From contig NZ_BMHD01000001.1 of assembly GCF_014640535.1 (NCBI RefSeq), positions 2,965,474 to 3,029,473 on the forward strand: a stretch of 64,000 bases of DNA, read 5' to 3'. Both the position numbers and the translations under genes were made by a program. This DNA comes from Cnuibacter physcomitrellae (lineage in GTDB: Bacteria; Actinomycetota; Actinomycetes; Actinomycetales; Microbacteriaceae). Numbering within the stretch: position 1 is the first letter of the stretch; every line of letters starts with the position of its first letter. The notes under the pieces were generated by a model. It saw only the letters and a program-made list of their open reading frames with translations, ran no database searches and had not been told where the DNA came from. Positions 41,499-58,828 of the stretch are shown here, one piece after another.

Positions 41499-41570
41499 GT
41501 TACGGCCGTGTAAAACGTCTGCCGCGCCGCGCCCGGTCCCTTGCGCGCCGCGGAGACCACAGTGCAGAAT
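41499..41570 (+). promoter_or_regulatory. putative IclR site and promoter of the B6 ring-cleavage operon
   Basis: GTTAC-N6-GTAAAAC at 41499-41516, then TTGCGC (41541-41546) and CAGAAT (41565-41570) spaced 18 bp. The same 17-18-bp site recurs before the other two B6-locus promoters. The stretch up to the ATG at 41636 is unusually A/T-rich (41575-41612), consistent with a start region. The -35/-10 choice is tentative. Confidence 0.5.
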
Positions 41571-41635
41571 CTCTACCATTGCAATAATCGGGACTCAAAA
41601 TATAAGAATTCAGGGCCCTGGGAAGGAAGCAACAG

Positions 41636-42769
41636 ATGACCGAACGCCGACGCCACGCCGAGATCTCGGGTGGGGGCTTCGCGGGTCTCACCGCGGCCAC
41701 CGCACTGGCACAGAGGGGATGGAGCGTCCGGCTCCACGAGCGCTCACCCGAGTTGCGCACCGAGGGCGCCGGGATCGTGCTCTGGAACAACAGCCTCCAG
41801 GTCATCGACGCCATCAAGGCCGGGCCCGACCTGATGTCGAGGTCGATGACGCCGCCCGCCTACGAGACCAGGATGAACAACGTCATCCAGTCCCAGGAGA
41901 CGCTCGACGGCATCCGCTGGCGCACCCTGACCCGCCCGCACCTCTTCCAGACCCTGCTGGTCGCAGCGCGGGAGGCCGGTGTCGAGGTGGTCGCGGGCTC
42001 GGAGGTCGTCGGGGCCAGCCCGGATGGAACGATCCGGTTCGCGAACGGCGACTCCGCCGAGGCCGACCTCATCATCGGCGCCGACGGCGTCGGATCCGCC
42101 GTGCGCGACTCGTTGGACATCCCCCTGAAGCGCGAGCGCTCGCGTGACGGCATCACCCGCTTCCTCGTCCCGCGTCGCAAGGCCGAGCTGCAGGCGCTCG
42201 AGCCTGACACCGAGTGGGACAACGTCATCGACTTCTGGAACCTCGACCCGCGTGTGCTCCGCGTGCTGTACACGCCGGCCAATGACGAGGAGCTCTACAT
42301 CGCGCTCATGTCGCCCGCGGCCGACGCGGACGGCTCGAGGGTGCCCATCGACCTCGACCTCTGGACGAGCGTCTTCCCCCAGCTCGCCCCGGTGCTCGAG
42401 GATGCGGCGAAGACCCCGGGTCGTTACTACGGCTACCAGACCACACGCCTCGACCACTGGACCGAGGGCAAGGTCGCGCTCATCGGCGACGCCGCCCACG
42501 CCATGTGCCCCGCGCTCGCCCAGGGCGCCGGATGCGCGATGCAGAACGCCTGGACGCTCGCCGTCGCCGCGACCGAGGCGGACGACATCCCCGCGGCCCT
42601 CATCGACTGGGAGCGGCTCGAGCGTCCGTACACCGACATCGCCCAGGACCGCTCCCAGTGGTACGCCGACACCCGCGAGATGGCGAAGGGCAACCAGTTC
42701 CAGGGCGACAGCGTCGTCACCGCCACCTACAACCCGACCGATCCGCACCGACACGAGGTCCACGCATGA
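41636..42769 (+). CDS. 2-methyl-3-hydroxypyridine-5-carboxylate oxygenase
   Basis: 377 residues, FAD-dependent class A monooxygenase: GGGFAGLTA at 12-20, GADGVGS from 148 and GDAAHAMCPALAQGAG from 284. The run HERSPELRTEGAGIVLWNN and the segment EWDNVIDFWNLDPRVLRVLY match the family that opens the pyridine ring of 2-methyl-3-hydroxypyridine-5-carboxylate to acetamidomethylene-succinate. Length fits the Mesorhizobium enzyme (about 379). It heads a coupled operon with the decarboxylase, dehydrogenase and hydrolase of the same pathway. Confidence 0.9.
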   Translation: MTERRRHAEISGGGFAGLTAATALAQRGWSVRLHERSPELRTEGAGIVLWNNSLQVIDAIKAGPDLMSRSMTPPAYETRMNNVIQSQETLDGIRWRTLTRPHLFQTLLVAAREAGVEVVAGSEVVGASPDGTIRFANGDSAEADLIIGADGVGSAVRDSLDIPLKRERSRDGITRFLVPRRKAELQALEPDTEWDNVIDFWNLDPRVLRVLYTPANDEELYIALMSPAADADGSRVPIDLDLWTSVFPQLAPVLEDAAKTPGRYYGYQTTRLDHWTEGKVALIGDAAHAMCPALAQGAGCAMQNAWTLAVAATEADDIPAALIDWERLERPYTDIAQDRSQWYADTREMAKGNQFQGDSVVTATYNPTDPHRHEVHA

Positions 42770-43350
42770 GCATCGATCCGTACTACGACGTCCGCGCCTT
42801 CCACTCCTTCGTCCAGGAGACGGTGCACGACCTCGGCCCCGCGCCCGAGCAGCCCCTCGTCAAGGCCGCCGTCGCCGTGGTGATCAAGAATCCCTTCGCC
42901 GGGCAGTGGGTGGAGGACCTCTCCCCGCTCACCGGGCCGAGCGCGAGCATCGGCACCGAGCTCGGCGAGCGTGCGCTGGCCCTCCTCGGCGGTCGTCCCG
43001 CCGAGAGCTACGGCAAGGGCGGCATCGCCGGCCTCGCCGGGGAGCAGGAGCACGTGGTGGCCTGCGTGACCACCGTCTTCGGCAACGCCCTCCGCGACGC
43101 GGTCGGCGGCGGGAAGGCCTGGATCTCGTCGGCGACCAAGACCGCCGCGGCGGGGACGACCATCGACATCCCGCTGGCGTACAAGGATGAGGTGTACGTG
43201 CGGTCGCACTACGACGCGATCACCGTGGCGCTTCCCGACGCCCCTCGACCCGACGAGCTCGTCATCATCGCGGCCGTGGCCACAGGAGGCCGGGTGAACG
43301 CCCGCGTGGGCGGCATGACCGTCGCCGACGTCCTCGCCGGCACGAACTAG
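42766..43350 (+). CDS. DUF1185 (amino acid synthesis family) protein
   Basis: 194 residues, start overlapping the oxygenase stop (ATGA). The sequence (VKAAVAVVIKNPFAGQWVED, ESYGKGGIAG, RDAVGGGKAWISS) fits the DUF1185/AA_synth family, whose members are often found in amide- or ring-catabolic clusters but have no firmly established reaction. Its coupling to the ring-cleaving oxygenase says it belongs to B6 catabolism here. It could act on a labile ring-opening product. Confidence 0.8.
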   Translation: MSIDPYYDVRAFHSFVQETVHDLGPAPEQPLVKAAVAVVIKNPFAGQWVEDLSPLTGPSASIGTELGERALALLGGRPAESYGKGGIAGLAGEQEHVVACVTTVFGNALRDAVGGGKAWISSATKTAAAGTTIDIPLAYKDEVYVRSHYDAITVALPDAPRPDELVIIAAVATGGRVNARVGGMTVADVLAGTN

Positions 43351-43360
43351 GAGGAGCCCG

Positions 43361-44140
43361 ATGACCTACACCCACTCGCAGTACTTCGAGGACCAGTCCA
43401 TCGCGAGCGTGCTCGCCGACGTGGCCCGTGCTCACCGCATCCTCGAGCTCGAGGGCCACGGCGACATGTCCATGGGACACCTGTCGTTCCGCGACCCGTT
43501 CGGCCGCGGCCTCTGGCTCAAGCGCGGCAACCTCGCGCTCAGCGAGGTCGAGGGCGACGACTTCATCCTCATCGACTTCGACGGCACCGTGCTCGAGGGC
43601 ACCGGGCTCCGGCACCTCGAGTGGCCGCTGCACGCCGAGATCATGAAGGCGCGCCCCGACGTGAACTTCGTCGGCCACTCGCACTCCCACTACGCGACCG
43701 TGCTCGGAGCTTCCGAGGAGCCGCTGAAGCCCTACAACAACCACGGCGTGTGGTTCGCGTACGAGGGCGTGCCGCGCTTCACCGAGACGAGCCACATCAT
43801 CACCACGGTGCCGCTCGGCGTCGCCGCCGCGAAGGCTCTGGGGGACGCGCAGGCCATCCTGCTCGCCAACCACGGCGTCGCCTTCGTCGGCTCGACGGTG
43901 GCGGAGGTCACCCTGACGGGGATCTTCCTCGAGAAGGCGGCCCGGTTCCAGGTCGACCTCAAGTCGTCGGGCTTCGCCCCGATCGAGCCCACGGTCGAGG
44001 AGACCAAGGAGAAGTTCGACCGCATCTACCCGCCGAAGGCCCAGCACAACTTCTGGACCTTCTTCAACCGCCGTCTCGACCGTGTCGAGGCGCAGTTCGG
44101 CATCGGCATCTCGCCGATCGGCCTCCCGCCCGGAATCTGA
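43361..44140 (+). CDS. 3-hydroxy-2-methylpyridine-4,5-dicarboxylate 4-decarboxylase (class II aldolase family)
   Basis: 259 residues of the class II aldolase/adducin fold. Metal ligands are visible as GHSHSH (His106, His108) and a later LANHGVAFVG; Glu87 or Glu93 is a likely acid. The Mesorhizobium pathway uses exactly this family for the decarboxylation that yields 2-methyl-3-hydroxypyridine-5-carboxylate, the substrate of the oxygenase two genes upstream. It follows DUF1185 by 10 bp with AGGAG. Confidence 0.85.
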   Translation: MTYTHSQYFEDQSIASVLADVARAHRILELEGHGDMSMGHLSFRDPFGRGLWLKRGNLALSEVEGDDFILIDFDGTVLEGTGLRHLEWPLHAEIMKARPDVNFVGHSHSHYATVLGASEEPLKPYNNHGVWFAYEGVPRFTETSHIITTVPLGVAAAKALGDAQAILLANHGVAFVGSTVAEVTLTGIFLEKAARFQVDLKSSGFAPIEPTVEETKEKFDRIYPPKAQHNFWTFFNRRLDRVEAQFGIGISPIGLPPGI

Positions 44141-44207
44141 CGACCCTCGACCCCGCGTGACGCGCCTCGCGCATCCGCACCCCTTCCCCCGTGAACAAGG
44201 AGCAAGC

Positions 44208-45143
44208 ATGAGCAGCCTTCCCAGCATCGCCACCGTCGTCGGCTCGGGCACCATGGGCCCCGGCATCGCCGCGACCCTCGCCCGCGCGGGTGTCACCGTG
44301 CGTCTGTACGACATCTCCGCCGACGCCATCGCGAAGGCGGAGGCCGCCTACGGCGTCGTCCAGAACGTCCTCGAGGCGGTCGACTCCCCGTCGGCGCCCG
44401 GCGGATCCGTCTCGTTCGGCACCGACCTCGACGCCGCGCTCGCCGACACCGAGCTCATCATCGAGGCCGTTCCCGAGAAGCTCGAGCTGAAGCGGTCGGT
44501 CCTCGCCGACCTCGAGGCCCGCATCGGCGCCGACGTCATCATCGCGACGAACACCTCCGGCATCCCGATCACCACCATGGCCGAGTCGATGACCGTCCCC
44601 GGTCGTCTCATCGGCATGCACTGGTCGAACCCGCCGCACCTCATCCCGATGATCGAGATCATCCCCGGGCAGGCCACCGACGAGGCGCTCGTCGGGAAGC
44701 TCACCGAGATCGTGAAGTCGTTCAACTACGTGCCCGTGCTCGAGAAGGAGATCGCCGGCTTCGTCGAGAACCGCGTGCTCTACGCGATCCTGCGCGAGTG
44801 CATGGCGCTCCTCGAGGAGGGCATCGTCACGCCCGAGGGTCTCGACGCCTGCGTGAAGTGGGGCATCGGCTACAAGCTGTCGGTGATCGGCCCCACGCGC
44901 CTGCTCGACATGGCCGGCCTCGACATCTACCAGGCCGTGTCGAGCTACCTCAACAAGGAGCTCGACGCCTCCACCGAGACGCCGCAGCTGATCAAGGACA
45001 AGATCGCCGCCGGACAGCTCGGCTTCAAGTCGGGCGGCGGGATGTACGAGTACGGCGAGGGCGACGTCGACGCCAAGCGCAAGGAGATCATCACCGGCCT
45101 CATCGCCGCCCGCAAGACGCTGTCGTCCATCCCGAACGTCTGA
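44208..45143 (+). CDS. 5-formyl-3-hydroxy-2-methylpyridine-4-carboxylate 5-dehydrogenase (3-hydroxyacyl-CoA dehydrogenase family)
   Basis: 311 residues from ATG 44208 with AAGGAG upstream. N-terminal NAD-binding motif VVGSGTMGPGIA, then IIEAVPEKLELKRSVL, NTSGIPIT and GMHWSNPPHLIPMIEII, and a helical C-terminal domain with FVENRVLYAILRE. This is the 3-hydroxyacyl-CoA dehydrogenase fold recruited in B6 degradation to oxidise the 5-formyl group. Length matches (about 309). It is coupled to the hydrolase (TGATG). Confidence 0.85.
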   Translation: MSSLPSIATVVGSGTMGPGIAATLARAGVTVRLYDISADAIAKAEAAYGVVQNVLEAVDSPSAPGGSVSFGTDLDAALADTELIIEAVPEKLELKRSVLADLEARIGADVIIATNTSGIPITTMAESMTVPGRLIGMHWSNPPHLIPMIEIIPGQATDEALVGKLTEIVKSFNYVPVLEKEIAGFVENRVLYAILRECMALLEEGIVTPEGLDACVKWGIGYKLSVIGPTRLLDMAGLDIYQAVSSYLNKELDASTETPQLIKDKIAAGQLGFKSGGGMYEYGEGDVDAKRKEIITGLIAARKTLSSIPNV

Positions 45144-45982
45144 TGACGTCGGCCGTCACCGTCGAGGCGATCGGCGACGGGCTGTCGCGCACCCGGGGAG
45201 CCGAGGTCGACCTCGCCTTCCGGGTGCGCGGCAGCGGCCCCGCCGTGGTGCTGCTGCACGGCACCTCGGCGAACCACGCCGTGTGGGAGCCCGTCGGCGA
45301 CGCGCTCGAGGACAGCGCGACCGTGATCGCGCTCGACCAGCGCGGTCACGGCCGGAGCGACAAGCCCGTCTCCGGCTACACCGGGGCCGACTTCGCGGAC
45401 GATGTCGTCAGGGTGCTGGATGCGCTCGGCCTCGACCGCGCGGTGGTCGCCGGGCACTCGCTGGGCGGCCGCAACGCCTGGCTCGCGGCGGCCCGCCATC
45501 CGTCTCGCATCACCGGCGCCGTCGTCGTCGACTACACGCCGTACGTCGAGGCGAGCGTGCTCGACGAGCTCGACGTCCGCGTGGCTGCGGGCTTCCGCGA
45601 GTTCGCCGATGTCGACGAGATCGAGCGGTACCTGCGCGAGCGGTACACCCGCATCCTGCCCGGCGCCGTCTCGCGGCGTGCCCGGTGGGGCTACCGCCAG
45701 ACGGAGGAGGGGAGCTGGGTGCCGCTCGCGTCGCCCGACGCGATGCGGCAGCTCATCGAGGGGTTCCGCACGCCGTTCGACGCGGAGTTCCGAGAGGTCG
45801 CCGTACCGATGTCCCACCTCCGCGGCGACGGGAGCAGGATCGTGAGCGTGGATGCGTGGGAGCGCGCCCGAGCCGATCGGCCCGCCGACCGCTGGGTCGA
45901 GGTGCCGGACACCGACCACTACATCCCCGAAGAGGTCCCCGACCTCGTCGCCGCCGAGATCGACCGCGTTCTCGGATCCTGA
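45143..45982 (+). CDS. (E)-2-(acetamidomethylene)succinate hydrolase
   Basis: 279 residues, alpha/beta hydrolase with oxyanion motif LLHGTSANHAVW, nucleophile elbow GHSLGG (Ser106) and a C-terminal His in DTDHYIPEEVP. In B6 degradation an enzyme of this fold and length (about 278) hydrolyses the ring-opened product to succinate semialdehyde, acetate, ammonia and CO2. Position after the dehydrogenase and the shared operon support that role. Confidence 0.87.
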   Translation: MTSAVTVEAIGDGLSRTRGAEVDLAFRVRGSGPAVVLLHGTSANHAVWEPVGDALEDSATVIALDQRGHGRSDKPVSGYTGADFADDVVRVLDALGLDRAVVAGHSLGGRNAWLAAARHPSRITGAVVVDYTPYVEASVLDELDVRVAAGFREFADVDEIERYLRERYTRILPGAVSRRARWGYRQTEEGSWVPLASPDAMRQLIEGFRTPFDAEFREVAVPMSHLRGDGSRIVSVDAWERARADRPADRWVEVPDTDHYIPEEVPDLVAAEIDRVLGS

Positions 45983-46001
45983 CTGAAAGGACACACCCCT
46001 C

Positions 46002-46463
46002 ATGCCCATGTTCGCCGACCTCCGCGTCTCGAGCCCCGACTTCGAGGACCTCGGACGCATCCCCGACCGCCTCTCGGCCGACGGCGGCAACGATACGCCC
46101 GTCGTCGAGCTCTCCGGCGCCCCCGAGGGCACCGTCGAGCTGGCGCTCATCGTCAACGACCCCGACGCACCGCTCCCGAACGGCTTCACCCACTGGGTCG
46201 TCTACGGCATCGCCCCCGACACCACCACCCTCGACGTCACCGCCGACGGCGTGACGGTGGGCCCGATGGGTGCCGGACAGAACGTCTGGTACGGCCCGCA
46301 GCCTCCCGCTGGACACGGTGTGCACCACTACTTCTTCCACGTGTACGCGCTGGGGAAGCACGTCGAGGGCACGCCGACGCGCGAGGAGTTCCTCGCGCAG
46401 TACGCCGGCGACGTGCTCGAGACCGCCCGCTACGTGGGCACCTTCTCGAACGACTCCGAGTGA
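46002..46463 (+). CDS. YbhB/YbcL-type PEBP family protein
   Basis: 153 residues with the phosphatidylethanolamine-binding-protein motifs NDPDAPLPNGFTHWVVYGI and GVHHYFFHVYALG. There is no signal peptide. The bacterial family has no clear catalytic role. It lies 19 bp after the hydrolase inside the B6 operon, so it is probably co-expressed with it. What it does there is unknown. Confidence 0.85.
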   Translation: MPMFADLRVSSPDFEDLGRIPDRLSADGGNDTPVVELSGAPEGTVELALIVNDPDAPLPNGFTHWVVYGIAPDTTTLDVTADGVTVGPMGAGQNVWYGPQPPAGHGVHHYFFHVYALGKHVEGTPTREEFLAQYAGDVLETARYVGTFSNDSE

Positions 46464-46472
46464 GCTGACCGG

Positions 46473-47186
46473 ATGCCCATCACGGATGCGCACATGCACG
46501 TCGGGGACTTCCCGACGTTCGGCGTGAGGCTCGACGAGGATCGGCTCGCGCCCTACCTCGCCGAGAACGGCATCGACGCGGCGATGGTGTTCCACCAGGA
46601 CAACGCGATGGTCCGTCGGGTGATCCAGGACATCCCGGGCGCCTACGGGCTGTACTGGGCCAACCCGAAGCTCGGGGATCCCGTCCCCGAGCTCCGGGAG
46701 TACCTGGAGGACCCGAAGTTCCGCGGCGTGAAGCTGCATCCGCTGATGGACGGGTTCCACCCGGACGACCCGATGGTGTGGCCCATCATCGAGGTGCTGA
46801 TCGAGCACGACCTGCCGGCCCTCATCCACTGCGGCCACCCGATCTTCTCGCTGCCGTGGAGCATCGAGGAGCTCATCGCCCGGTACGAGGACGCGAAGAT
46901 CATCCTCGGGCACATGGGGCACGGCAACGTCATCTACATCGACGCCTCGATCGGGGTCGCCCAGCGGCATCCGAACGTCTGGCTCGAGACCAGCGGCATG
47001 CCGATGAGCGTGAAGATCCTCGAGGCCGTCCAGAAGGTGGGCGCGGACCGGGTCATGTACGGCTCCGACGGCCCGTGGCACGAGCCCCGGGTCGAGCAGC
47101 TCAAGGTGCAGCTCGCCGGCCTCTCGCCGGAGGACCTCGACGCCGTGATGCACGGCACCGCCCAGCGCCTCTTCCTCGGCGTGTAG
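46473..47186 (+). CDS. amidohydrolase-2 family metal-dependent hydrolase
   Basis: 237 residues. Metal-binding signature DAHMH at the N terminus, then GVKLHPLMDGF, HCGHPIFS, LGHMGHGN and the Asp of MYGSDGPW, all in the order of the amidohydrolase-2 family (decarboxylases and hydrolases). It is somewhat short for the family (typically 270-330). It is the last gene of the B6 ring-cleavage operon; no step of the known pathway needs it. Confidence 0.85.
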   Translation: MPITDAHMHVGDFPTFGVRLDEDRLAPYLAENGIDAAMVFHQDNAMVRRVIQDIPGAYGLYWANPKLGDPVPELREYLEDPKFRGVKLHPLMDGFHPDDPMVWPIIEVLIEHDLPALIHCGHPIFSLPWSIEELIARYEDAKIILGHMGHGNVIYIDASIGVAQRHPNVWLETSGMPMSVKILEAVQKVGADRVMYGSDGPWHEPRVEQLKVQLAGLSPEDLDAVMHGTAQRLFLGV

Positions 47187-47190
47187 CGCT

Positions 47191-47260
47191 TGGGGCTCCG
47201 CCCCTCGCCCCCGCCCCCGGCGCCAGCGTGTGGGGCTCCGCCCCTCGCCCCCACCCCGGC
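47191..47260. repeat. two 40-bp-spaced direct repeats
   Basis: TGGGGCTCCGCCCCTCGCCC occurs at 47191-47210 and again at 47231-47250, followed in each case by CC and a C-rich tail. Each copy also contains GGGGCTCCGCCCC, a self-complementary hairpin (GGGGC/GCCCC). They directly precede the long palindrome. Confidence 0.75.
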
Positions 47261-47315
47261 TTTGTCCAGTTTTCCGTCGCGAAACGCCGATTTCGCGACG
47301 GAAACCTGGACAAAG
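47260..47315. terminator. 25-bp-arm hairpin between converging B6 operons
   Basis: Arms 47260-47284 and 47291-47315 are complementary over 25 bp except one G-U-type mismatch, with a 6-nt loop (CGCCGA). It lies between the amidohydrolase stop and the oxidase stop and should terminate both operons. Confidence 0.8.
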
Positions 47316-47325
47316 CCCGTGGGGG

Positions 47326-48861
47326 TTACGCGGGGTAGCGGGCGGCGAAGGACTCGGCGAGGGCGAGCACCGACGCGTGGACGGGGCCGGCGGTGATCGA
47401 GGGGATCACGGACGCGTCGACGACGTGCAGGTTCGACAGGCCGCGGAAGCGGAGGTCGGGGGTCACCGGCGCCGCGTCGGACGCGCCCATCGAGAGGGTG
47501 CCGACGGGGTGGTGGTGCGTGATCGCGGCGCGGGCGATGAAGGCGTCGGCCTCCGCCTCCGTCGAGACCGAGGCGCCGGGCAGCACCTCCGAGTCGCGCC
47601 ACGCGGCCAGCGCGTCCGAGCCGCCGACGAGCCGGGCGTGCTCGAGAGCGGCCCGGAACGCGGCACGGTCGTGCTCCGTGTCGAGGTAGTTCGGATCGAT
47701 GATCGGCTCGTCGGCGAGATCGGGGCCCGAGATGCGGAGCGACCCACGGCTCGTCGGGTTCGTCACGCCGAAGAGCAGCGTATAGCCCTCGCCGGGCGCG
47801 ACGCCGTGGTCGGGGAACGACTCCGAGGCGCTCGGCCCGACGACGCATCCCACCACGATGTCGGCGGGACCCGCCGTCACGGAGAGCCCGTCGAGCGAGA
47901 GGTACGTCATCGACTCCGAGAGCTGCAGCCGCGTCGGTGGCACCGGCCGGGCGGACCGGTACAGGGTGCCCGCCCCGAGCAGGTGGTCGTGCAGGTTGGT
48001 CCCGACGCCGGTCGACTCCAGCACGGTGTCGACGCCGGCGGCGGACAGCACCGACGGGTCGCCGATCCCGGAGCGCATGAGGAGCAGCGGATCGCCGATC
48101 GAGCCGGCGCAGAGGATCACCTCGTCGGCGGTGAGCACCTCGTCGGCGCCATGGAGGGAGACCTCGACCCCCGACACCCGCGATCCCGCGAGGACGAGCC
48201 GGTGCACATCGACGCCGGTGAGCAGCGTCAGGTTCGGGCGATCGAGGACCGGGTCGAGGTAGACGTCCGAGACCGTGACCCGCTGACCGTCGCGGATCGT
48301 GAGCGAGTTCGGGGTCCCGCCCAGCATCTCGCCGCCGTTGTGGTCCGGGATGCGGGCCACCCCCAGCGACTCCCACGCGGCGAGATAGTCGGTCACGAGC
48401 GGGCTCGACAGGTCGGGCCCCGGGAGCATCACCGGGAGCGGACCGTCGGCGCCGTGGACCGCATCCGCGCCACCCGAGAACGACTCGGAGCGGATGAAGG
48501 AGGGCAGCAGCGCATCCCACGACCACCGGTCGTCCCCGGTCGCCTCGACCCAGCGGTCGAAGTCGGCGCGGCAGCCGCGCATGTGCGCCATCGCGTGCAC
48601 CAGGCTCGACCCGCCCGGCCCCTTGCCTCGGGCCCACTCGAGCGAGCGCCCGGCGAGCCCGGGCTGCGGAGTGGTGCGGTAGGCCCAGTCGTAGCGGCGG
48701 CCGTGGATGAACGGCCACAGCTCGGGCCGGCGCATCTCGGGATCGGTGACCCGAGCGCCGGCCTCGAGCACGGTGACGCGGCGGGCGGGATCCGCGCTGA
48801 GGCGGTTCGCCACCACGCTCCCGGCCGAGCCGGCCCCGATGATCAGGACATCGGAGTGCAT
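47326..48861 (-). CDS. GMC oxidoreductase, probable pyridoxine 4-oxidase
   Basis: 511 residues. FAD-binding VLIIGAGSAGSVVANRLS at the N terminus, WARGKGPGGSSLVHAMAHMRG, and the C-terminal active-site region HHPVGTLSMGASDAAPV with HASVLALAESFAARY at the end. Pyridoxine 4-oxidase of Microbacterium is a GMC enzyme of about 507 residues. It is adjacent to the pyridoxal dehydrogenase and lactonase genes. 4-Pyridoxate dehydrogenase is also a GMC enzyme, so that is the main alternative. Confidence 0.78.
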   Translation of the reverse strand: MHSDVLIIGAGSAGSVVANRLSADPARRVTVLEAGARVTDPEMRRPELWPFIHGRRYDWAYRTTPQPGLAGRSLEWARGKGPGGSSLVHAMAHMRGCRADFDRWVEATGDDRWSWDALLPSFIRSESFSGGADAVHGADGPLPVMLPGPDLSSPLVTDYLAAWESLGVARIPDHNGGEMLGGTPNSLTIRDGQRVTVSDVYLDPVLDRPNLTLLTGVDVHRLVLAGSRVSGVEVSLHGADEVLTADEVILCAGSIGDPLLLMRSGIGDPSVLSAAGVDTVLESTGVGTNLHDHLLGAGTLYRSARPVPPTRLQLSESMTYLSLDGLSVTAGPADIVVGCVVGPSASESFPDHGVAPGEGYTLLFGVTNPTSRGSLRISGPDLADEPIIDPNYLDTEHDRAAFRAALEHARLVGGSDALAAWRDSEVLPGASVSTEAEADAFIARAAITHHHPVGTLSMGASDAAPVTPDLRFRGLSNLHVVDASVIPSITAGPVHASVLALAESFAARYPA

Positions 48862-48869
48862 CGCGGCCG

Positions 48870-49604
48870 TCAGTTGCGCGTGTGACCGGCGTCGACCACG
48901 AGGGTCTGCCCGGTGATCCAGCCCGCCTTCTCCGAGGCGAGGAAGGCGACCGCGGGCGCGACGTCCTGGGGGAGCCCGCGGCGGTCGAACGCCTGCATCG
49001 GCACGACGTAGTCGAAGCCGGCCGCGTGCGGTCCGGACAGGACGCCCTCGCTCGCGATGATGCCGGGGGCGACGGCGTTGATCGTGATGCCGAGGCGTCC
49101 CAGCTCACCGGCGAGCGCACGCACGAGCCCGATCGACGCGCCCTTCGTGGCCACGTAGTGGGCGCAGTCGGGCGTCCCGGCCACGAAGGTGTTCGACGCG
49201 ATGTTGACGATGCGGCCGTAGCCGGCCTCGCCCATCACCTCGGTGACCGCGTGCGTCACGAGGTAGATCCCGTCGAGGTTCACGGACATGACGCGGCGCC
49301 ACTCCTCGAAGGTGATGTCGGCCCACGGCGTGAGCGGCACGAGGGCGGCGTTGTTGACGAGCACGTCGATGCGGCCGAGCTCGTCGACGATCTCGGCGAT
49401 CGTGCGGTTCACCGCATCCTGGTCGCTGACGTCGAGGGTCTTCGCCACACCGCCGTTGCGCTCCGCGACCGCGGCGGCGCCCTCGGCGTTCACATCGGCG
49501 ACGACGACCTTCATCCCCTCGGCGGCGAGCTCGTCGGCGATGGCGGCGCCGATGCCCTGGGCTGCTCCGGTGACCAGGGCGACGCGCTGGACTGTATCGG
49601 TCAT
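48870..49604 (-). CDS. pyridoxal 4-dehydrogenase (SDR)
   Basis: 244 residues, classical SDR: TGAAQGIGAAIA, NNAALVPLTPWADI, Ser in IASNTFVAGTP, Tyr/Lys in YVATKGASIG, and WITGQTLVVDAGHTRN. The NTFxAGTP and WITGQTL segments agree with the pyridoxal 4-dehydrogenase of Mesorhizobium, which oxidises pyridoxal to 4-pyridoxolactone with NAD. It lies between the oxidase and lactonase genes, in pathway order. Confidence 0.87.
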   Translation of the reverse strand: MTDTVQRVALVTGAAQGIGAAIADELAAEGMKVVVADVNAEGAAAVAERNGGVAKTLDVSDQDAVNRTIAEIVDELGRIDVLVNNAALVPLTPWADITFEEWRRVMSVNLDGIYLVTHAVTEVMGEAGYGRIVNIASNTFVAGTPDCAHYVATKGASIGLVRALAGELGRLGITINAVAPGIIASEGVLSGPHAAGFDYVVPMQAFDRRGLPQDVAPAVAFLASEKAGWITGQTLVVDAGHTRN

Positions 49605-49658
49605 GACGATGGTGCTCCTCTTATATAGGTGTGGGTGTGACGGAGGCGTCGGGTCGGG

Positions 49659-50417
49659 TCAGCGTCCGCCGTAGGACTCGGGGGCGAGCTTCCACTCCAG
49701 GTAGGGCTCGAGCTCGTGCGAGGGGTAGACGTCGGCGTCCTTCGTCCTCGCCAGGTAGTTGAGGCGGCGGATCGCCTCGACCGACTTGGTCGGGTCGAGG
49801 TGGAATCCGGCGATCCACTCCTTCTCGAGGGTGGTGCGTGTGTACGCGGCGTCGCCGCAGAAGAGCATGCTGCGCTCGTTCTGCATCTCGACGAGCAGGG
49901 AGTAGTGGCCGATGGTGTGGCCCGGGGTCTCGAACAGCCACACGCCGGGCACGATCTCGTAGTCACCGGAGATGGGCTTGTAGCTCACGCCTTCGTGATC
50001 GAAGGAGAGATCGGAGTACCCGAGTCGCTCGAACGGCTCGGGCACCTTCGCGTGCCGCAGCTCCTCCTTGTGGACGAGCGTGGTCGCCTTCGTCAGGTAC
50101 TTGTTGCCGCCGACGTGGTCGAAGTGGAAGTGGGAGTTGACCACGATGTCGACGTCCTCAGGGGAGTAGCCGCACTTCGCCAGCTGCGCCGGGATGGTCT
50201 GCTCCTCCGTCTGCTCGGGCAGCTCGAACGGGAGCACGCGGTTCACGTGGTCGAGGTCGAAGCCCGTGTCGTAGAGGATCAGCGCGTCCGGATGCTCGAC
50301 CAGGACGCTGTAGACGGGGAACCGCACCGGGTTGCCCGCGTTGATGTGCCAGTGCACGTCGGACTCGTCGATGACGAGCGTTCCGCCGTCGAGCAGATAC
50401 ACCTTCGGGTCCGTCAT
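49659..50417 (-). CDS. 4-pyridoxolactonase (metallo-beta-lactamase fold)
   Basis: 252 residues. The zinc motif is NSHFHFDHVGGNKY (His96, His98, Asp100, His101), with His167 in TPGHTIGHYSLLVE and Asp189 in FCGDAAYT. The segments FERLGYSDLSF and RFPVYSVLVEH match the family of the Mesorhizobium 4-pyridoxolactonase, a relative of acyl-homoserine-lactone lactonases. It hydrolyses 4-pyridoxolactone to 4-pyridoxate. First gene of the oxidase/dehydrogenase operon. Confidence 0.9.
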   Translation of the reverse strand: MTDPKVYLLDGGTLVIDESDVHWHINAGNPVRFPVYSVLVEHPDALILYDTGFDLDHVNRVLPFELPEQTEEQTIPAQLAKCGYSPEDVDIVVNSHFHFDHVGGNKYLTKATTLVHKEELRHAKVPEPFERLGYSDLSFDHEGVSYKPISGDYEIVPGVWLFETPGHTIGHYSLLVEMQNERSMLFCGDAAYTRTTLEKEWIAGFHLDPTKSVEAIRRLNYLARTKDADVYPSHELEPYLEWKLAPESYGGR

Positions 50418-50464
50418 CGGACTGCACCTCCACGGTTTCTTATGATGCGCTAAGTGACGCTCAC

Positions 50465-50523
50465 GTTATGAGAACAGATTTTCACGTGTCAAGAGTGGGC
50501 CGGTGAGTTTACGAAGTCGAAAC
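50465..50523 (-). promoter_or_regulatory. promoter of the lactonase operon with putative IclR site
   Basis: On the minus strand: site GTTTC-N6-GTAAAC (50523-50507), 14 bp, then TTGACA (50492-50487), 16 bp, CATAAC (50470-50465). The same site lies at the same 14-bp distance in the BMP promoter. A site just upstream of -35 suits an activator. Confidence 0.6.
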
Positions 50524-50536
50524 ACGCCCGGCCCCG

Positions 50537-50932
50537 TCACCCGGCCTTGACGGCGGGGAAGTCGCCGAACTCGGGGGCGAAGTCGTAGTGCGCCCAGCGG
50601 TAGCAGTGATCGAGCATCGGCTGGGCGGCGAAGTCGCCGATGCAGGTGGTGTCCTGATACCGGTCCCCGGACTTGTCGGTGTAGTGCACGCGACACAGCA
50701 CCTTCCAGGTGGTCCCGTCGAGCGACTCGTCCTCGATGAGGTGGCCGGAGGGCAGCCAGCACTCGGTCGACGTGATCGCCGAGGCGTCCACGCCCGATGT
50801 CGGACCGGCCACCTGGGCTAGCGTGTCGAGGGCGGCGGCATCCTCCTCGGACAGCGCCGGGGCGCTCGCGCACCCGGCGAGGATGAGGGCGGATGCGACT
50901 GCCAGCAGCGTCTGCGCACGGCGATGGGTCAT
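50537..50932 (-). CDS. small predicted lipoprotein
   Basis: 131 residues from ATG 50932, chosen because AAGGAGGT lies upstream. It begins MTHRRAQTLLAVASALILAG with lipobox LAGC (Cys21). The mature part has four cysteines (ECWLPSG, VLCRVHY, TTCIGDF, LDHCYRW), perhaps two disulfides. I recognise no family. It sits between the lactonase operon and the divergent ABC importer, both of the B6 locus. Confidence 0.75.
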   Translation of the reverse strand: MTHRRAQTLLAVASALILAGCASAPALSEEDAAALDTLAQVAGPTSGVDASAITSTECWLPSGHLIEDESLDGTTWKVLCRVHYTDKSGDRYQDTTCIGDFAAQPMLDHCYRWAHYDFAPEFGDFPAVKAG

Positions 50933-50966
50933 GGGGACCTCCTTTCCCTCATCGTCGAGGGTGCGT

Positions 50967-51027
50967 GTTTCCGCGGTGTAAAACCTCGGAACTCGTCGTT
51001 GACGCTGCTGTCGTCTTCTCATACTGT
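50967..51027 (+). promoter_or_regulatory. promoter of the BMP importer operon with putative IclR site
   Basis: Site GTTTC-N6-GTAAAAC (50967-50984), 14 bp, then TTGACG (50999-51004), 17 bp, TACTGT (51022-51027). The arrangement is the same as in the lactonase promoter. TTCTCA (51016-51021) and TGAGAA (51048-51053) form an additional inverted pair around the start region. Confidence 0.6.
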
Positions 51028-51113
51028 ATCGCTACCCCGACACATTGTGAGAAATGCACCGAGACACAACGAAGCGGTTCGGGGCATCGTCCACTCGGAA
51101 GGAACGTTCTGCA

Positions 51114-52205
51114 ATGTTCACATTCACCGGCGGCAGCAGCAGCCGCACCGTCTCTCGCGTCGCCGCGCTCACGGCCGCGGGCGCCCTCGCCATCGGACTC
51201 GCGGCCTGCTCAGGCGGCCGCGGCGACGACTCCGGCGCGGGCTCCACCTCGTCCGCCGGCACCGAGGTGACGAAGTTCGCCCTCGTCGCACCGGAGAACG
51301 AGTCGGACTTCGGCTGGAACCAGGCCGGCCTCATGGGAGCCGACCAGGCCGCGACAGACCTCGGCATCGAGGTCACCCTCGTGCCGGATGCGGGCTGGGA
51401 CAACGCGGAGACCGTCCTCGGCCAGGTCGCCGACGGCGGCGCGCAGTTCATCATCGCCCACGCCTCCGGCTACGGCGTCGCCGCGACCAGCGTCGCGCAG
51501 GACAAGAACGTGCCGATCCTCATCCAGGACGCCGGCGACAACATCCCCGGCAAGATCGCGGTCACCAAGACCGAGGCGCAGGAGGGCGGCTACCTCGCCG
51601 GCATCGCCGCGGCGATGACGACGAAGTCGAAGACGATCGGCATCGTGGTGTCGGCCGACGACCTCAACTGGTTCAAGATGGCCGCCGGGTTCGCCGAGGG
51701 CGTCTACAGCGTCGACCCGTCGATCAACGTGCTCTACACCTCCGTCGGGCCCGCGGCCTACGCGGATGCGGCGGGCGGCAAGACGGCGACCGAGCAGCTC
51801 ATCGCCTCCGGCGCCGACGTGATCTTCGGCATGGGCGACGGCGCGACCCACGGCTACCTGCAGGCCGTCGAGGCCGCCCCCGGGGTGAAGTACATCGCCG
51901 ACATCGGCGACGTCACCTCGGGCCTCAGCGACCCGAGCGTCCTGCTCACGTCGGTGCTCTGGAACTACGGACCCACCTACGAGAAGGCCATCGCCGACGT
52001 CGAGGCGGGCACGTTCGGCCAGCAGGGCTACGACCTCACGGTCGACAACGGCGGTCTCTCCCTCCAGGAGACCGAGAACCTGACGAGCCAGATCCAGTCC
52101 GCGATCGACACGGCGAAGAAGGGGATCGCCGACGGGTCGATCAAGCCCACCGCGGCCAGCACGGCCGACGAGGTCACCGCGGTGATCGCCAAGAAGGGCG
52201 CCTGA
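51114..52205 (+). CDS. BMP/PnrA family ABC substrate-binding lipoprotein, candidate vitamin B6 binder
   Basis: 363 residues from ATG 51114. An export signal with lipobox LAAC (Cys32) precedes a BMP-type fold: VAPENESDFGWNQAGLMGAD, QFIIAHASGYG, GGYLAGIAAAM and LLTSVLWNYGPTYEKAI. Characterised members bind purine nucleosides. Here the whole importer lies between B6-degradation genes and shares their promoter site, so pyridoxine or another B6 vitamer is the likely ligand (inference). Confidence 0.88.
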   Translation: MFTFTGGSSSRTVSRVAALTAAGALAIGLAACSGGRGDDSGAGSTSSAGTEVTKFALVAPENESDFGWNQAGLMGADQAATDLGIEVTLVPDAGWDNAETVLGQVADGGAQFIIAHASGYGVAATSVAQDKNVPILIQDAGDNIPGKIAVTKTEAQEGGYLAGIAAAMTTKSKTIGIVVSADDLNWFKMAAGFAEGVYSVDPSINVLYTSVGPAAYADAAGGKTATEQLIASGADVIFGMGDGATHGYLQAVEAAPGVKYIADIGDVTSGLSDPSVLLTSVLWNYGPTYEKAIADVEAGTFGQQGYDLTVDNGGLSLQETENLTSQIQSAIDTAKKGIADGSIKPTAASTADEVTAVIAKKGA

Positions 52206-52218
52206 CCCACACCCTCCC

Positions 52219-52250
52219 GGGCGGTGCCGGATCCCGGTCCGGCACCGCCC
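52219..52250 (+). promoter_or_regulatory. intercistronic hairpin
   Basis: A perfect 13-bp stem, GGGCGGTGCCGGA (52219-52231) with its complement at 52238-52250, loop of 6 nt, between the binding-protein stop and the ATPase start. Such structures usually attenuate read-through or protect the upstream message so that binding protein exceeds transporter core. Confidence 0.7.
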
Positions 52251-52274
52251 GCCCCACGCTAGGAGACCCGTCCC

Positions 52275-53891
52275 GTGACATCACCGACCGCCCCGGACGT
52301 GATCTCGCTCCGAGAGATCACGAAGGCCTTCCCCGGGGTCGTGGCGAACGACCACATCTCGCTCGACATCGTCAGCGGCCAGGTGCACTGCCTGCTCGGT
52401 GAGAACGGTGCCGGCAAGTCGACCCTCATCAGCATCCTCGCCGGCATGCAGCAGCCCGACTCGGGCACGATCGCGATCAACGGCAAGCCCGTCCCGATCA
52501 ACTCCCCGAAGATCGCCGTCGACTACGGGATCGGGGTCGTGCACCAGCACTCGACGCTCGTCCCGGCGTTCACCGTGCTCGAGAACCTCATGCTCGGGGA
52601 GAGCGGCCTCATGCAGGGCAAGAAGGCCGCGATGGAACGGCTCGACGAGCTCTCGGATCTCCTCGGCGCCCGCATCGACCCGCACGCCCTCACCTCCGAC
52701 CTCGGCCTCGGCCAGCAGCAGCAGGTCGAGATCGCGAAGGCCATCTGGAAGGGCAGCCGCCTCCTCGTGCTCGACGAGCCGACGTCGATGCTCACGCCGC
52801 AGGCGATCGAGCACCTCGGCGAGAGCGTCGCTCGGGTCAAGGCGCAGGGTCTCGCCGTCGTCTTCATCACCCACAAGCTCCGCGAGGCCTACGCGATGGG
52901 CGACTGCGTCACCGTCCTCCGGGGCGGCCGGAACGTCGGCCACATCGGGGTGGACGAGCTGCGCACCTACAGCGAGCAGCAGGCGCAGGACGCGATCCTG
53001 CGCGCCATGTTCGGCGAGGACCTCGCCCGCGTCGACGACGCCGCCGAGCTCGCCGGGGCGACGGACGCGACGCGCGAGACGCGCAGCATCGATCTCGCGT
53101 CACGCCCGGTGAGACTCGAGCTCACCGGGGTCTCGAGCAAGGGGCACGGTCGCGACGTCGAGGCGCAGGACGTGACGATCCGAGTGCACGAGGGCGAGAT
53201 CCTCGGCATCGCGGGCATCGACGGGCATGGCCAGGGCGCCCTCGCCGAGGTGGTGGCCGGACAGCGTTCGGCGTCCTCGGGGGTGGTCCGGTTCGACGGT
53301 CAGGACGTCACCAAGCAGGGGGTGCGTGCGAGACAGCAGCTCGGCCTCCGGTATGTCACGGACGACCGCCTCCACGAGGGCACGGTCGGATCGATGTCCG
53401 TCGCGCTCAACCTCGTCATCAAGCGGATCGGGCAGCGCCCGTTCTGGCGGTTCGGGCAGATCCAGCGGAAGGCCGTCGACACGGAGGCCGAGCGCCTGAT
53501 CGAGGAGTACGGCATCCGCACCCCGTCGCCGGCCACCCGAGCGGGAACCCTCTCCGGCGGCAACATCCAGAAGATCCTGCTCGCCCGCGAGCTGACGCAC
53601 GGCGCCCGCCTGGTCGTCGTCAACAAGCCCACGTACGGGCTCGACCTCAAGACCGTGAGGCTCGTCCGCGAGATCCTCATCGACTTCGCCGCCCAGGGCG
53701 GGTCCGTGCTCCTGCTCTCGACCGACCTCGACGAGCTCGTGGAGCTCTCGCACCGCATCGAGGTCATCTCGAGCGGGCGGATCGTCGGCGGTGTCACGAA
53801 CGACGGCCCGGGGACGGCCGAGAAGGTGGGCCACTACATGACCGGCGCCATCGAGGGCGAGGACGTCCTGGAAGCGGAGCAGACCCGATGA
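52275..53891 (+). CDS. nucleoside-type ABC transporter ATP-binding protein
   Basis: 538 residues from GTG 52275 with AGGAGACC upstream. First ATPase: Walker A GENGAGKST, signature in DLGLGQQQQVEIAKA, Walker B LLVLDEPTSML. Second ATPase: degenerate GIDGHGQGAL, signature TLSGGNIQKILLAREL and VVVNKPTYGLD in place of the usual DEP. So one half is catalytically weakened, as is common in this family. It energises the two permeases that follow. Confidence 0.92.
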   Translation: MTSPTAPDVISLREITKAFPGVVANDHISLDIVSGQVHCLLGENGAGKSTLISILAGMQQPDSGTIAINGKPVPINSPKIAVDYGIGVVHQHSTLVPAFTVLENLMLGESGLMQGKKAAMERLDELSDLLGARIDPHALTSDLGLGQQQQVEIAKAIWKGSRLLVLDEPTSMLTPQAIEHLGESVARVKAQGLAVVFITHKLREAYAMGDCVTVLRGGRNVGHIGVDELRTYSEQQAQDAILRAMFGEDLARVDDAAELAGATDATRETRSIDLASRPVRLELTGVSSKGHGRDVEAQDVTIRVHEGEILGIAGIDGHGQGALAEVVAGQRSASSGVVRFDGQDVTKQGVRARQQLGLRYVTDDRLHEGTVGSMSVALNLVIKRIGQRPFWRFGQIQRKAVDTEAERLIEEYGIRTPSPATRAGTLSGGNIQKILLARELTHGARLVVVNKPTYGLDLKTVRLVREILIDFAAQGGSVLLLSTDLDELVELSHRIEVISSGRIVGGVTNDGPGTAEKVGHYMTGAIEGEDVLEAEQTR

Positions 53892-55054
53892 GCATCGACA
53901 CCGAAGCAGAGCTGAAGCCGTCCGCCCAGCGGCGCGAGCCGATGGGCACCAAGCAGAGCAGGGGCCGGTCGATCGTCGACGGACTCGTGCGCTCGATCCT
54001 GCCCGTCCTCCTCGCGCTCATCGTGGCGGGCTTCATCATGCTCGCGATGGGCAGCAGCCCGCTGGCGTTCTTCCAGGGCGTGTGGACCTACGGCCTCTCC
54101 GGGGGCAACTGGCAGCGCAGCCTCGTGCTGATGGCGCCGCTGGTCATCATCGCGGTCGGGCTCATCGTGGCCTTCCGCGGGCAGCTGTGGAACCTCGGCT
54201 ACAACGGCCAGTACCTCCTCGGTGCGGTCGTCGCGTCGGGCGTGGGCCCGTCCCTGTTCGCCGTGATGCCCGCCTGGCTCGCGACGCTCATCATCTTCGT
54301 CGGGGCGATCCTCGTCGGGGCGGTGTGGTCGCTCATCCCGGCCATCCTCAAGGCGCGCTACGGCACGAACGAGATCATCACGTCGCTCGTCATGTCCTTC
54401 ATCGGCGTCGGCATCGCCAACCTGCTGATCAAGGGCCCGTTCAAGGATCCGTCGACCCCGCAGCCGCAGACCGCCGTCATCCCCGACGACCAGCTGCTGC
54501 CGTACATCCCGGGCACGCAGATCCACGTCGGCTTCATCATCGCCATCGTGCTCGCGATCGTGGCGCAGTTCGTCCTCACCCGGACCTCGTTCGGTCTGCG
54601 GATGGACGTCTTCGGGGCCAGCCCCAAGGCGGCGCGACACGTCGGGATCAACTCGACCTGGATGGTCATCCTGCTGTTCGCCCTCTCCAGCGGGCTCATC
54701 GCCTTCGCGGGTTCTATCGACGTCCTCGGCCAATACAGCTACCAGCGCGCGAACTGGGATCCGCACTACGGCGACGCGATCATGCCGTTCGTGTTCCTCG
54801 CCAGGCTGAGCCCGCTCGCCGCGATCCCGCTCGTCGCGTTCTACGCCATCCTCGCCACCGGTGGGACGCTCGCGGCCCAGCAGGCGGGCCTCAACGTCGA
54901 CTTCCTGCTCGTCATCGTGGGTCTCATCCTGCTCTTCATGACCATCACGGAGTACGTCGGCGAGCGTCGTCGACTCGGTCAGAGCTACCTGCCGGCGGGG
55001 CTCCGCCGCACGCTCGTGAGACCGTTCCAGCGCGACGGGAGGGGATCCCTGTGA
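53888..55054 (+). CDS. nucleoside-type ABC transporter permease 1
   Basis: 388 residues, starting in overlap with the ATPase stop (ATGA). A charged cytoplasmic leader of about 35 residues is followed by about ten hydrophobic segments with the BMP-transporter signatures RGQLWNLGYNGQYLLGAVVA and GTNEIITSLVMSFI. It forms the channel with permease 2. Confidence 0.92.
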   Translation: MSIDTEAELKPSAQRREPMGTKQSRGRSIVDGLVRSILPVLLALIVAGFIMLAMGSSPLAFFQGVWTYGLSGGNWQRSLVLMAPLVIIAVGLIVAFRGQLWNLGYNGQYLLGAVVASGVGPSLFAVMPAWLATLIIFVGAILVGAVWSLIPAILKARYGTNEIITSLVMSFIGVGIANLLIKGPFKDPSTPQPQTAVIPDDQLLPYIPGTQIHVGFIIAIVLAIVAQFVLTRTSFGLRMDVFGASPKAARHVGINSTWMVILLFALSSGLIAFAGSIDVLGQYSYQRANWDPHYGDAIMPFVFLARLSPLAAIPLVAFYAILATGGTLAAQQAGLNVDFLLVIVGLILLFMTITEYVGERRRLGQSYLPAGLRRTLVRPFQRDGRGSL

Positions 55055-55986
55055 GCGACATGCTGTCCGCCACGTTCATCACCGTGTTCGTGGCCTCGGT
55101 GATCGCGCAGACGATGCCGCTGCTGCTCGCCTCCGTCGGGGAGACGATCGGCGAGCAGGCCGGCGTGCTGAACCTCGGCATCGAGGGCGTCATGCTCATC
55201 GGCGCCTACTCCGGGTTCGTCGTCACCCTCACCACCGGCAGCTTCTGGCTCGGGATGCTCGGGGGCGCGCTGGGCGGGATCGTCGGCAACCTCGCCATGC
55301 TGGTCCTCAACGTGTGGCTGGGGCTCAACCAGATCGTCATCGGCCTCGCCGTCACCCTGATCGGCGAGGGCATCACGAGCGTGCTGTACCTCCAGAACTA
55401 CGCGAAGGCGAACGCCAGCCTCGGTCAGAGCCCCAGTCTGCCCATCCCCGGCCTGGCGGACATCCCCGTCATCGGGCAGGCGGTCTTCCAGCAGTCCGGG
55501 ATCTTCTGGGTGATGCTCCTCCTCGTCATCGCCGTCGGATTCCTGCTGGCGAAGACCAACTGGGGTCTTGCGACTCGCGCGGCCGGTCAGAAGCCGTCGT
55601 CGCTGGATGCCGCCGGCGGGAGCGTGCTGCGCACCCGGTCGATCGCGGTGCTCCTGAGCGGCGCGTTCGTCGGTCTCGGCGGGGCCTACCTGTCGGTGCT
55701 CACGACGGCGACCTTCACCGGGTTCCTCACCAACGGGCTTGGCTTCATCGCCATCGTCATCACGATGCTCTCGCGCGGCCGCATCGCGCTGGTGATGATC
55801 ACCTCCCTGATCTACGGCGTGGCCGTGGCGATCGGTCCGGCGCTCCAGGTGATCGGCTTCGCCATCCCCGCGGACGTGATCAAGATGCTGCCGTTCATCG
55901 TGGTCATCCTCACGCTCATCGTCTTCGCCCGCAGCTCGGTGGTCCCACCGGCGCTCGGCGCTCCCTACATCCGAGGCGCGCGCTGA
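55051..55986 (+). CDS. nucleoside-type ABC transporter permease 2
   Basis: 311 residues from GTG 55051, overlapping the previous stop, GGGAGGGG upstream. About eight hydrophobic segments and the family motifs LLLASVGETIGEQAGVLNLG, IEGVMLIGAYSGF and LTNGLGFIAIVITMLSRG. It completes the BMP-type importer and is followed by the transaminase gene after 26 bp. Confidence 0.92.
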   Translation: MSDMLSATFITVFVASVIAQTMPLLLASVGETIGEQAGVLNLGIEGVMLIGAYSGFVVTLTTGSFWLGMLGGALGGIVGNLAMLVLNVWLGLNQIVIGLAVTLIGEGITSVLYLQNYAKANASLGQSPSLPIPGLADIPVIGQAVFQQSGIFWVMLLLVIAVGFLLAKTNWGLATRAAGQKPSSLDAAGGSVLRTRSIAVLLSGAFVGLGGAYLSVLTTATFTGFLTNGLGFIAIVITMLSRGRIALVMITSLIYGVAVAIGPALQVIGFAIPADVIKMLPFIVVILTLIVFARSSVVPPALGAPYIRGAR

Positions 55987-56012
55987 CGCGCGCCGACACG
56001 AGAGGCGACACC

Positions 56013-58207: not shown

Positions 58208-58819
58208 ATGCGGGAGCAGATGGGGGTCGTGGTCGCAGATGACGACCCGCTGGTGCGGAAGGTCGTCGCCGATCACCTGCAGGCGTCGGATCGAATCCAC
58301 GTCCTCGCCGAGTGCCAGGACGGGGAGGCGGTGATCCATGCTGCGCGCCTGTACCGGGTGGACGCGGTGGTGGCGGATGTGTGGATGAAGGGGCTGAACG
58401 GGATCGCGGCCACGACCGCGGTGCGCCGTATCCGCGCGAACACCCGAGTGATCCTGATGACCCGTACTCTCGACTCGAGGGTGGTCCAGGCCGCCCGACT
58501 CGCAGGAGCGGAGACCGTGCTGGACAAGTCGACCGTCATCGACGACCTGTTGCCCCTGCTCACGGGGGAGTCCGCGCCGACCTCCAGGCGCAGCGAGCTG
58601 GCGATGCTGTCAGTGCGTGAGCAGCAGGTCGCGCAATTGCTCATCGCAGGCCGCACCAACGCCGACATCGGCCTGACCCTGGGTCTGAGCATCAACTCCG
58701 TGAAGACCTACGCGTCGCGGATCTACACCAAGCTGCAGGTCACCAACCGAGTCCAGCTCGCGCATACCATGAGCTCCGCCGTTCGCGCCCGGAACGTCGG
58801 AGGGCCGTCCGCGGTCTAG
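58208..58819 (+). CDS. NarL/LuxR-type response regulator (orphan)
   Basis: 203 residues. Receiver domain: acidic pocket ADDDP, phospho-acceptor Asp in VVADVWMKG, conserved Thr in LMTRT and Lys in VLDKS. The C-terminal LuxR helix-turn-helix is LSVREQQVAQLLIAGRTNAD then LSINSVKTYASRIYTKLQV. GAGGAGA lies upstream. There is no histidine kinase in the window. It forms a block with the two regulators that follow. Confidence 0.9.
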   Translation: MREQMGVVVADDDPLVRKVVADHLQASDRIHVLAECQDGEAVIHAARLYRVDAVVADVWMKGLNGIAATTAVRRIRANTRVILMTRTLDSRVVQAARLAGAETVLDKSTVIDDLLPLLTGESAPTSRRSELAMLSVREQQVAQLLIAGRTNADIGLTLGLSINSVKTYASRIYTKLQVTNRVQLAHTMSSAVRARNVGGPSAV

Positions 58820-58828
58820 CATTCGTCC

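Follow-up and report, generated by a model that had tools for sequence, protein, structure and literature searches.

A GlnR-like box and tandem IclR-like sites at the promoters of a vitamin B6 breakdown locus in Microbacteriaceae

Which regulators decide when a bacterium breaks down vitamin B6? The question is raised by a 64,000-nucleotide stretch of the Cnuibacter physcomitrellae genome (RefSeq assembly GCF_014640535.1, contig NZ_BMHD01000001.1, positions 2,965,474 to 3,029,473 of the forward strand; hereafter the window), in which enzymes assigned to B6 breakdown surround three sites of the form GTTWC-N6-GTAAA, one at each of the three presumed operon promoters. A preliminary description of this DNA had noticed the sites and proposed that the IclR-family protein encoded at 57226 binds them as an activator. 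Here, we consider it somewhat more probable than not that two regulators act at all three promoters, GlnR at the upstream box, activating under nitrogen shortage, and the IclR protein at separate operators in the core promoter. The binder of each site, the sign of regulation and the signals or ligands are what we infer from the comparisons below.

The three sites lie where they had been placed (Table 1), and GTTWC-N6-GTAAA (GTTWCNNNNNNGTAAA) occurs exactly three times in the window, a number that none of 100 dinucleotide shuffles reached (mean 0.00). The whole genome (4.35 Mb) holds nine matches, and one to the reversed pattern. The right half is GTAAAC in one box and GTAAAAC in two, and the gap from the last C of the box to the -35 is 14 bp at the lactonase promoter, 14 bp at the transporter promoter and 24 bp at the monooxygenase promoter, all as previously given; counted from the common core instead, the gaps are 15, 16 and 26. 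A lactonase search gave 194 relatives, from which 80 loci were kept, and the first 38 of the 80 (L011-L048, 690,190 bases) were compared, with a relative of the IclR gene detected in 24 of them. These loci contain 24 exact matches, every one at one of the three promoters and oriented toward the gene (lactonase 8, transporter 11, monooxygenase 5), and no match to the reversed pattern. With up to one mismatch, the box is present at the lactonase promoter of 13 and at the transporter promoter of 19 of the 24 IclR-bearing relatives; at the monooxygenase promoter it is exact in 5 of the 22 relatives whose upstream region was examined, a total that counts L023, whose stretch is unreliable (a partial gene at the locus end). 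The site was originally picked by eye, as a chance resemblance might be, but such an explanation is refuted by the shuffles and by the recurrence of all 24 exact matches at the same promoters, and we give it practically no weight.

To describe the box we used a table of 42 sites that includes the three of the window. The sites were chosen by similarity to the pattern, leaving out weak monooxygenase-promoter matches in L028, L029 and L037 and everything from L034 and L037, and keeping two sites with two mismatches (L016 lactonase, L013 monooxygenase); one set of the promoter alignments omits L032-L035. Of the 35 sites at the lactonase and transporter promoters, 32 have a gap of 15-16 between core and -35 (the exceptions are two gaps of 28 and one site without a recognised -35); all seven at the monooxygenase promoter have 25-26, which makes 39 of 42 overall. 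Hence, the placement, earlier called identical, is nearly so, the box standing about one helical turn further out at the monooxygenase promoter. What stands is a regulatory site shared by the three operons: it is placed like an activator site, upstream of the -35, recurs in orthologous loci and is seldom found elsewhere.

The choice of the IclR protein as binder of this site was not supported by comparison with the published consensus. Across the 42 sites the columns read cGTGTTWC-gGnc-gTGTAAm, with halves 11 bp apart and cGTGT common to both in the same direction. One IclR subgroup is described by GTT-11-AAC, in full GTTYCRYW3RYGRAAC (PMC8222616), and the outer GTT and AAC halves of the box have just this spacing, which we first took as support for a simple IclR site. 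The column test speaks against it: the mirrored reading fits the outer bases only, columns 7-13 agree at 0-0.38 and columns 12 and 13 at 0.0, the box having a G and a T, fixed or almost so, where the consensus wants Y and G, with 0 of 42 sites fitting both.

A better IclR candidate lies in the core promoter. A second conserved element, TTCTCA-N26-TGAGAA, which the preliminary description had overlooked, covers the -10 and leader with two IclR-like sites 21 bp apart in 38 bp, and in the promoter alignments TTCTCATA over the -10 with its mirror TGAGAA is a stronger conserved feature than the upstream box. At the lactonase promoter the operator was called (10 or more of 12 positions matching; p of at most 0.025 each in 200 mononucleotide shuffles) in 22 of 24 IclR-bearing loci, L027 and L029 being those where it was not found, versus 1 of the 14 in which no IclR gene was detected, a 4.7-kb contig (L038). 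At the transporter promoter it was found in 15 of 24 versus 0 of 3, and there the exact inverted element TTCTCAYA-N14-26-TGAGAA has its only place in the genome. At the monooxygenase promoter, where the half-sites are degenerate in the window, directly repeated halves 21 bp apart were counted, without shuffle control, in 11 of 22 relatives (a match at -263 in L029 is not included), and the first half-site is GAGAA in seven relatives. Read as pairs of IclR sites, the operators have centres 21 bp apart at each of the three promoters, as is reported for IclR tandem sites, which have the core GKTYCRYW3-4RYGRAMC and centres 18-22 nt apart, 19-21 nt also being given (PMC8222616); spans of 37-39 or a 21-bp step were preset in our scans, the spacing having first been noticed in the promoter alignments. 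Most columns of the core YCRYW3RYGR fit, those of the upstream arm (columns 2-8) being fixed by selection and the downstream arms not.

The likeness to IclR-family tandem sites comprises most columns of the core YCRYW3RYG, the 21-bp spacing and an IclR gene in the same presumed operon, and the differences are the outer half-site, TTCTC rather than GTTYC or WTTYC, and weak right halves. Some results weigh against an IclR operator. The outer columns are missed, with T3 in 0 of 40 upstream arms and at 0.10 in downstream arms and A15-A16 mostly low; 9 of 24 IclR-bearing loci fall short at the transporter promoter, although in several the examined stretch ends before the right arm; and the loci without IclR belong mostly to distant organisms, so that the co-occurrence of operator and IclR gene is confounded with kinship. 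Nevertheless, the operator looks like a better IclR site than the upstream box, with the 57226 protein as its candidate binder, because its agreement with the IclR core is closer and, at the lactonase promoter, more of the IclR-bearing loci retain it. IclR proteins can activate and bind several sites, and the exact matches to the box among the 38 loci are confined to IclR-bearing ones, so the protein might still bind GTTWC-N6-GTAAA and activate all three promoters, with the -10 element as a second IclR site or a part of the promoter; PcaU is named in PMC8222616. Given the misfit of the inner columns and the lack of any box within one mismatch at the promoters examined in IclR-bearing L027, L029, L030, L036 and L037, we regard this as unlikely.

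What, then, might bind the upstream box? On the other strand it reads TTTAC-N6-GAAAC, in general form KTTAC-N6-GWAAC, and in this form it looks more like the nitrogen box of GlnR than like an IclR site. Published forms of the GlnR box are gTnAC-n6-GaAAc in Streptomyces coelicolor and t/gTAAC-n6-Gc/aAAC in Mycobacterium smegmatis (PMC10704036). Eight of the nine defined columns of the former agree at 0.79-1.0 across the 42 sites (columns 2, 4, 5, 12, 13, 14, 15 and 16 at 1.0, 1.0, 0.98, 1.0, 0.79, 1.0, 1.0 and 0.95); position 1 is G at 0.14, but T or G, as in M. smegmatis, at 1.0. The two also share the 5+6+5 architecture, the 11-bp period, TnAC and GAAAC halves on one strand and the place upstream of the -35, and sites of OmpR-type regulators likewise have same-direction halves. 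A full GTTTC-N6-GTAAC is found in 6 of 20 transporter-promoter sites. A relaxed GlnR pattern, run without a control on 11 loci whose boxes are weak or absent, gave matches that include a full GTCAC-N6-GAAAC at -235 relative to the L030 transporter gene.

The window genome encodes a GlnR, whose best solved relatives, 8hih (2e-80) and 8hig (9e-74), are labelled only as response regulators and are, we take it, GlnR structures; next come the GlnR receiver domain 4o1h (4e-26) and then MtrA at 4e-23. A relative at E of at most 1e-40 is present in 24 of 24 genomes (the window genome and all 23 relatives searched). GTAAC-N6-GAAAC stands at all 23 glnA promoters examined, that of the window genome included, one of the 23 relatives searched having no glnA match at the threshold. 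The amtB gene of the window genome has GAAAC-N6-TTTAC, the same two half-sites in swapped order (read by eye). As a separate observation, 14 of the 23 glnA promoters, within the upstream regions L180-L201, carry a second GlnR-like box with 0-1 mismatch 22 bp after the first, which the window genome lacks.

Several observations count against GlnR. Known GlnR boxes, GTnAC-n6-GTnAC included, differ from the B6 box in that the latter is single, lies on the non-coding strand and has mostly T as first and third base; G at position 1 is seen in 14% of sites, and where an 'irreplaceable' A is expected at position 4, the box read in coding orientation has T in 79%. The box also differs from that of glnA (TTTAC versus GTAAC), and at the amtB promoter a scan for usual-order boxes gave none with fewer than two mismatches. 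No NCBIfam model named the regulator GlnR, its presence also in genomes where the B6 box is missing means that it does not discriminate, and the core columns are biased by the choice of sites for pattern similarity. A named exception to the strand rule and the T/G of M. smegmatis (PMC10704036) make a G at position 1 and the coding strand usual rather than strictly defining. Another OmpR-type response regulator, most likely MtrA, could also bind the box, alone or in competition with GlnR: MtrA and GlnR read similar sequences in S. coelicolor (PMC11000389), and the window genome has 13 Trans_reg_C matches, one of which (L168) we took for MtrA by eye. The use of B6 as a nitrogen source would, however, agree more simply with nitrogen control, and we hold the MtrA alternative to be somewhat less likely still than IclR at the box.

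The distribution of related boxes in the genome bears on the same point. GTTWC-N6-GTNAC is found at 13 places (14 rows), versus five rows for the reversed pattern, and part of the 13 places is therefore due to chance. Six of them adjoin glnA, a family-5 solute-binding protein, the FAD subunit of a molybdopterin dehydrogenase and cytosine-deaminase-like, N-carbamoylputrescine-amidase-like and RutA-like genes. The preliminary description had set store by the motif not being common at unrelated promoters, which holds only in part, given these boxes at glnA and at some nitrogen-compound genes. We regard the association as suggestive and not as a test of gene-function enrichment, and some of the results speak against it: the three '-like' enzymes score below NCBI's cut-offs, and the other seven places (one inside a ROK-type gene; others by two zinc dehydrogenases, a mandelate-racemase-type enzyme, a 2-oxoglutarate oxygenase, an IclR gene and one unassigned) are not evidently nitrogen-linked. 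Among the nine exact matches, three of which belong to the B6 locus, only those at an FMN monooxygenase and a solute-binding protein (21% identity to the family-5 one) are plausibly nitrogen-linked besides, and four adjoin a VOC-type protein and GntR, XRE-cupin and ROK-type regulators (several by eye).

About 70 kb away, near-identical sites stand by an NMT1-type transporter, a LacI gene and an FMN monooxygenase, so the box is not private to the B6 locus. This would suit a regulator from outside the locus other than those named; the 5+6+5 form and base pattern, however, already match a regulator encoded in the genome, and we think such an additional protein improbable. In the locus in question (L113:600-7081 and L166, G000:C1:2931274-2939100), two TTACGGCYGTGTAAAA sites accompany an NMT1/THI5-type transporter, the LacI gene and an NtaA-type FMN monooxygenase, and a RutA-like gene nearby has GTTAC-N6-GTTAC; this may be another locus for nitrogen compounds that carries the same box. 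Orthologues of the L113 solute-binding protein were expected at L116 and L126, but the solute-binding proteins there are only 25-26% identical to it.

Three other readings of the matches were dropped. As a global motif the box was matched 2 to 9 times per genome across 13 genomes. The site at 2937622 by the LacI gene continues into AAAACGTTTTA, a palindrome whose second half is missing at the B6 sites. The sites at VOC-type (L001, L115, L138) and ROK-type genes (L009, L114, L127), gene types that were read by eye, have the short pattern in common but lie within conserved flanks of their own and look like sites of other regulators: before the VOC-type gene, GTTTCRAATTTGTAAA near 1501-1516 is conserved in the three genomes and is probably another regulator's palindrome, and in the ROK set a conserved site near 1501-1516 lies between the regulator and a small membrane-protein-like gene, this type too being read by eye.

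Taken together, GlnR would bind as a head-to-tail dimer to the 5+6+5 box (GTTWC-N6-GTAAM) upstream of the -35, and under nitrogen shortage it, or a regulator reading the same box, would activate the operons, with B6 vitamers then serving as a nitrogen source. Operators over the -10 repress, and the locus's own IclR protein, on two sites 21 bp apart that cover the -10 and the first part of the leader (at the monooxygenase promoter they follow closely on the -10), would most likely be a repressor, released by a B6 vitamer or breakdown product. Since iclR lies within the transporter operon, the protein would also control itself. The broader proposition, that B6 is a GlnR-governed nitrogen source in Microbacteriaceae, with a single reverse-strand box 15-26 bp upstream of the -35 switching on B6 uptake and ring-opening and a vitamer-sensing IclR gate on tandem operators, is more tentative, and we would put it somewhat short of an even chance.

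Gene identities at the locus (Table 1) come from Pfam and from NCBIfam models judged by NCBI's cut-offs, and operon extents are presumed. The enzyme families are those of described B6 degradation (pyridoxine 4-oxidase, pyridoxal 4-dehydrogenase, 4-pyridoxolactonase), enzymes reportedly studied in Microbacterium luteolum and Mesorhizobium loti. The monooxygenase operon also encodes a class-II aldolase, a 3-hydroxyacyl-CoA-dehydrogenase-like protein, an alpha/beta hydrolase and, at 46002-46463 (+), a PEBP/YbhB-type protein without an obvious pathway role, present in 21 of 24 IclR-bearing loci. The putative promoter hexamers of this operon are a weak sigma-70 match. Between the two divergent operons, a small lipoprotein-like gene (50537-50932, -) starts 35 bp from the transporter box and recurs in all 24 IclR-bearing loci (35-70% identity); a longer reading of its frame has no Pfam match. 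Response regulator and LuxR genes at 58208-60268 were set aside because they have no match in the 38 compared loci.

Table 1 Features of the B6 locus in the window (position 1 is the first letter of the window).
Feature	Position	Strand	Basis or remark
Upstream box, ring-opening monooxygenase operon promoter, GTTAC-N6-GTAAAAC (GTTACGGCCGTGTAAAAC)	41499..41516	+	Sequence; GlnR-like on opposite strand
Monooxygenase promoter: -35 TTGCGC (41541-41546), -10 CAGAAT (41565-41570), spacer 18	41541..41570	+	Putative; from sequence
Tandem IclR-like half-sites RAKAA at 41583 and 41604, 21 bp apart	41571..41608	+	Monooxygenase promoter; degenerate in window
FAD-dependent monooxygenase, probable ring-opening enzyme of B6 catabolism	41636..42769	+	PF01494; exact activity putative
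Monooxygenase operon (presumed)	41636 to about 47186	+	FAD monooxygenase is first gene
Lactonase operon (presumed)	47326..50417	-	Three genes
GMC oxidoreductase, probable pyridoxine 4-oxidase	47326-48861	-	GMC Pfam; name putative
Pyridoxal 4-dehydrogenase, SDR type	48870-49604	-	NCBIfam above cut-off (operon matches: NF047925, NF047923)
4-Pyridoxolactonase	49659-50417	-	NCBIfam above cut-off (operon matches: NF047925, NF047923)
Tandem IclR-like operator, TTCTCA...TAAGAA over -10 and leader, 38 bp	50437..50474	-	Lactonase promoter; sequence, alignment, locus scan
Lactonase promoter: -35 TTGACA (50492-50487), -10 TAACGT (50468-50463), spacer 18	50463..50492	-	Conserved in alignment; hexamers putative
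Upstream box, lactonase operon promoter, GTTTC-N6-GTAAAC (GTTTCGACTTCGTAAAC)	50507..50523	-	Sequence
Upstream box, B6 transporter operon promoter, GTTTC-N6-GTAAAAC (GTTTCCGCGGTGTAAAAC)	50967..50984	+	Sequence
Transporter promoter: -35 TTGACG (50999-51004), -10 TACTGT (51022-51027), spacer 17	50999..51027	+	Conserved in alignments; hexamers putative
Tandem IclR-like operator, TTCTCATACTGT...ACATTGTGAGAA, 38 bp	51016..51053	+	Transporter promoter
Transporter operon (presumed): putative B6 ABC transporter binding protein, ATPase, permease, class-V aminotransferase	51054..57173	+	NF047927 above cut-off; Pfam
IclR-family regulator, last gene of transporter operon	57226..58071	+	PF01614, PF09339

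Neither kind of site, the GlnR-like box or the IclR tandem, is new. In our searches of the open-licence PMC literature we saw no description of the transcriptional control of this locus, nor of the pairing of such sites at a B6 locus or of nitrogen control of vitamin breakdown; relative to known GlnR boxes, the target here is vitamin B6 catabolism. A doubtful lead, IclR at the upstream box, is replaced by two separate and directly testable assignments, which would connect nitrogen control with the breakdown of vitamin B6 in a bacterial family. If they are true, a reverse-strand box as sole activator site would be an unusual mode for GlnR, and promoters are in hand for finding the ligand of an IclR protein. 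Degradation would then be limited to times of nitrogen shortage and a surplus of the vitamin, which would tell when actinobacteria from soil or associated with plants destroy a vitamin needed by their neighbours.

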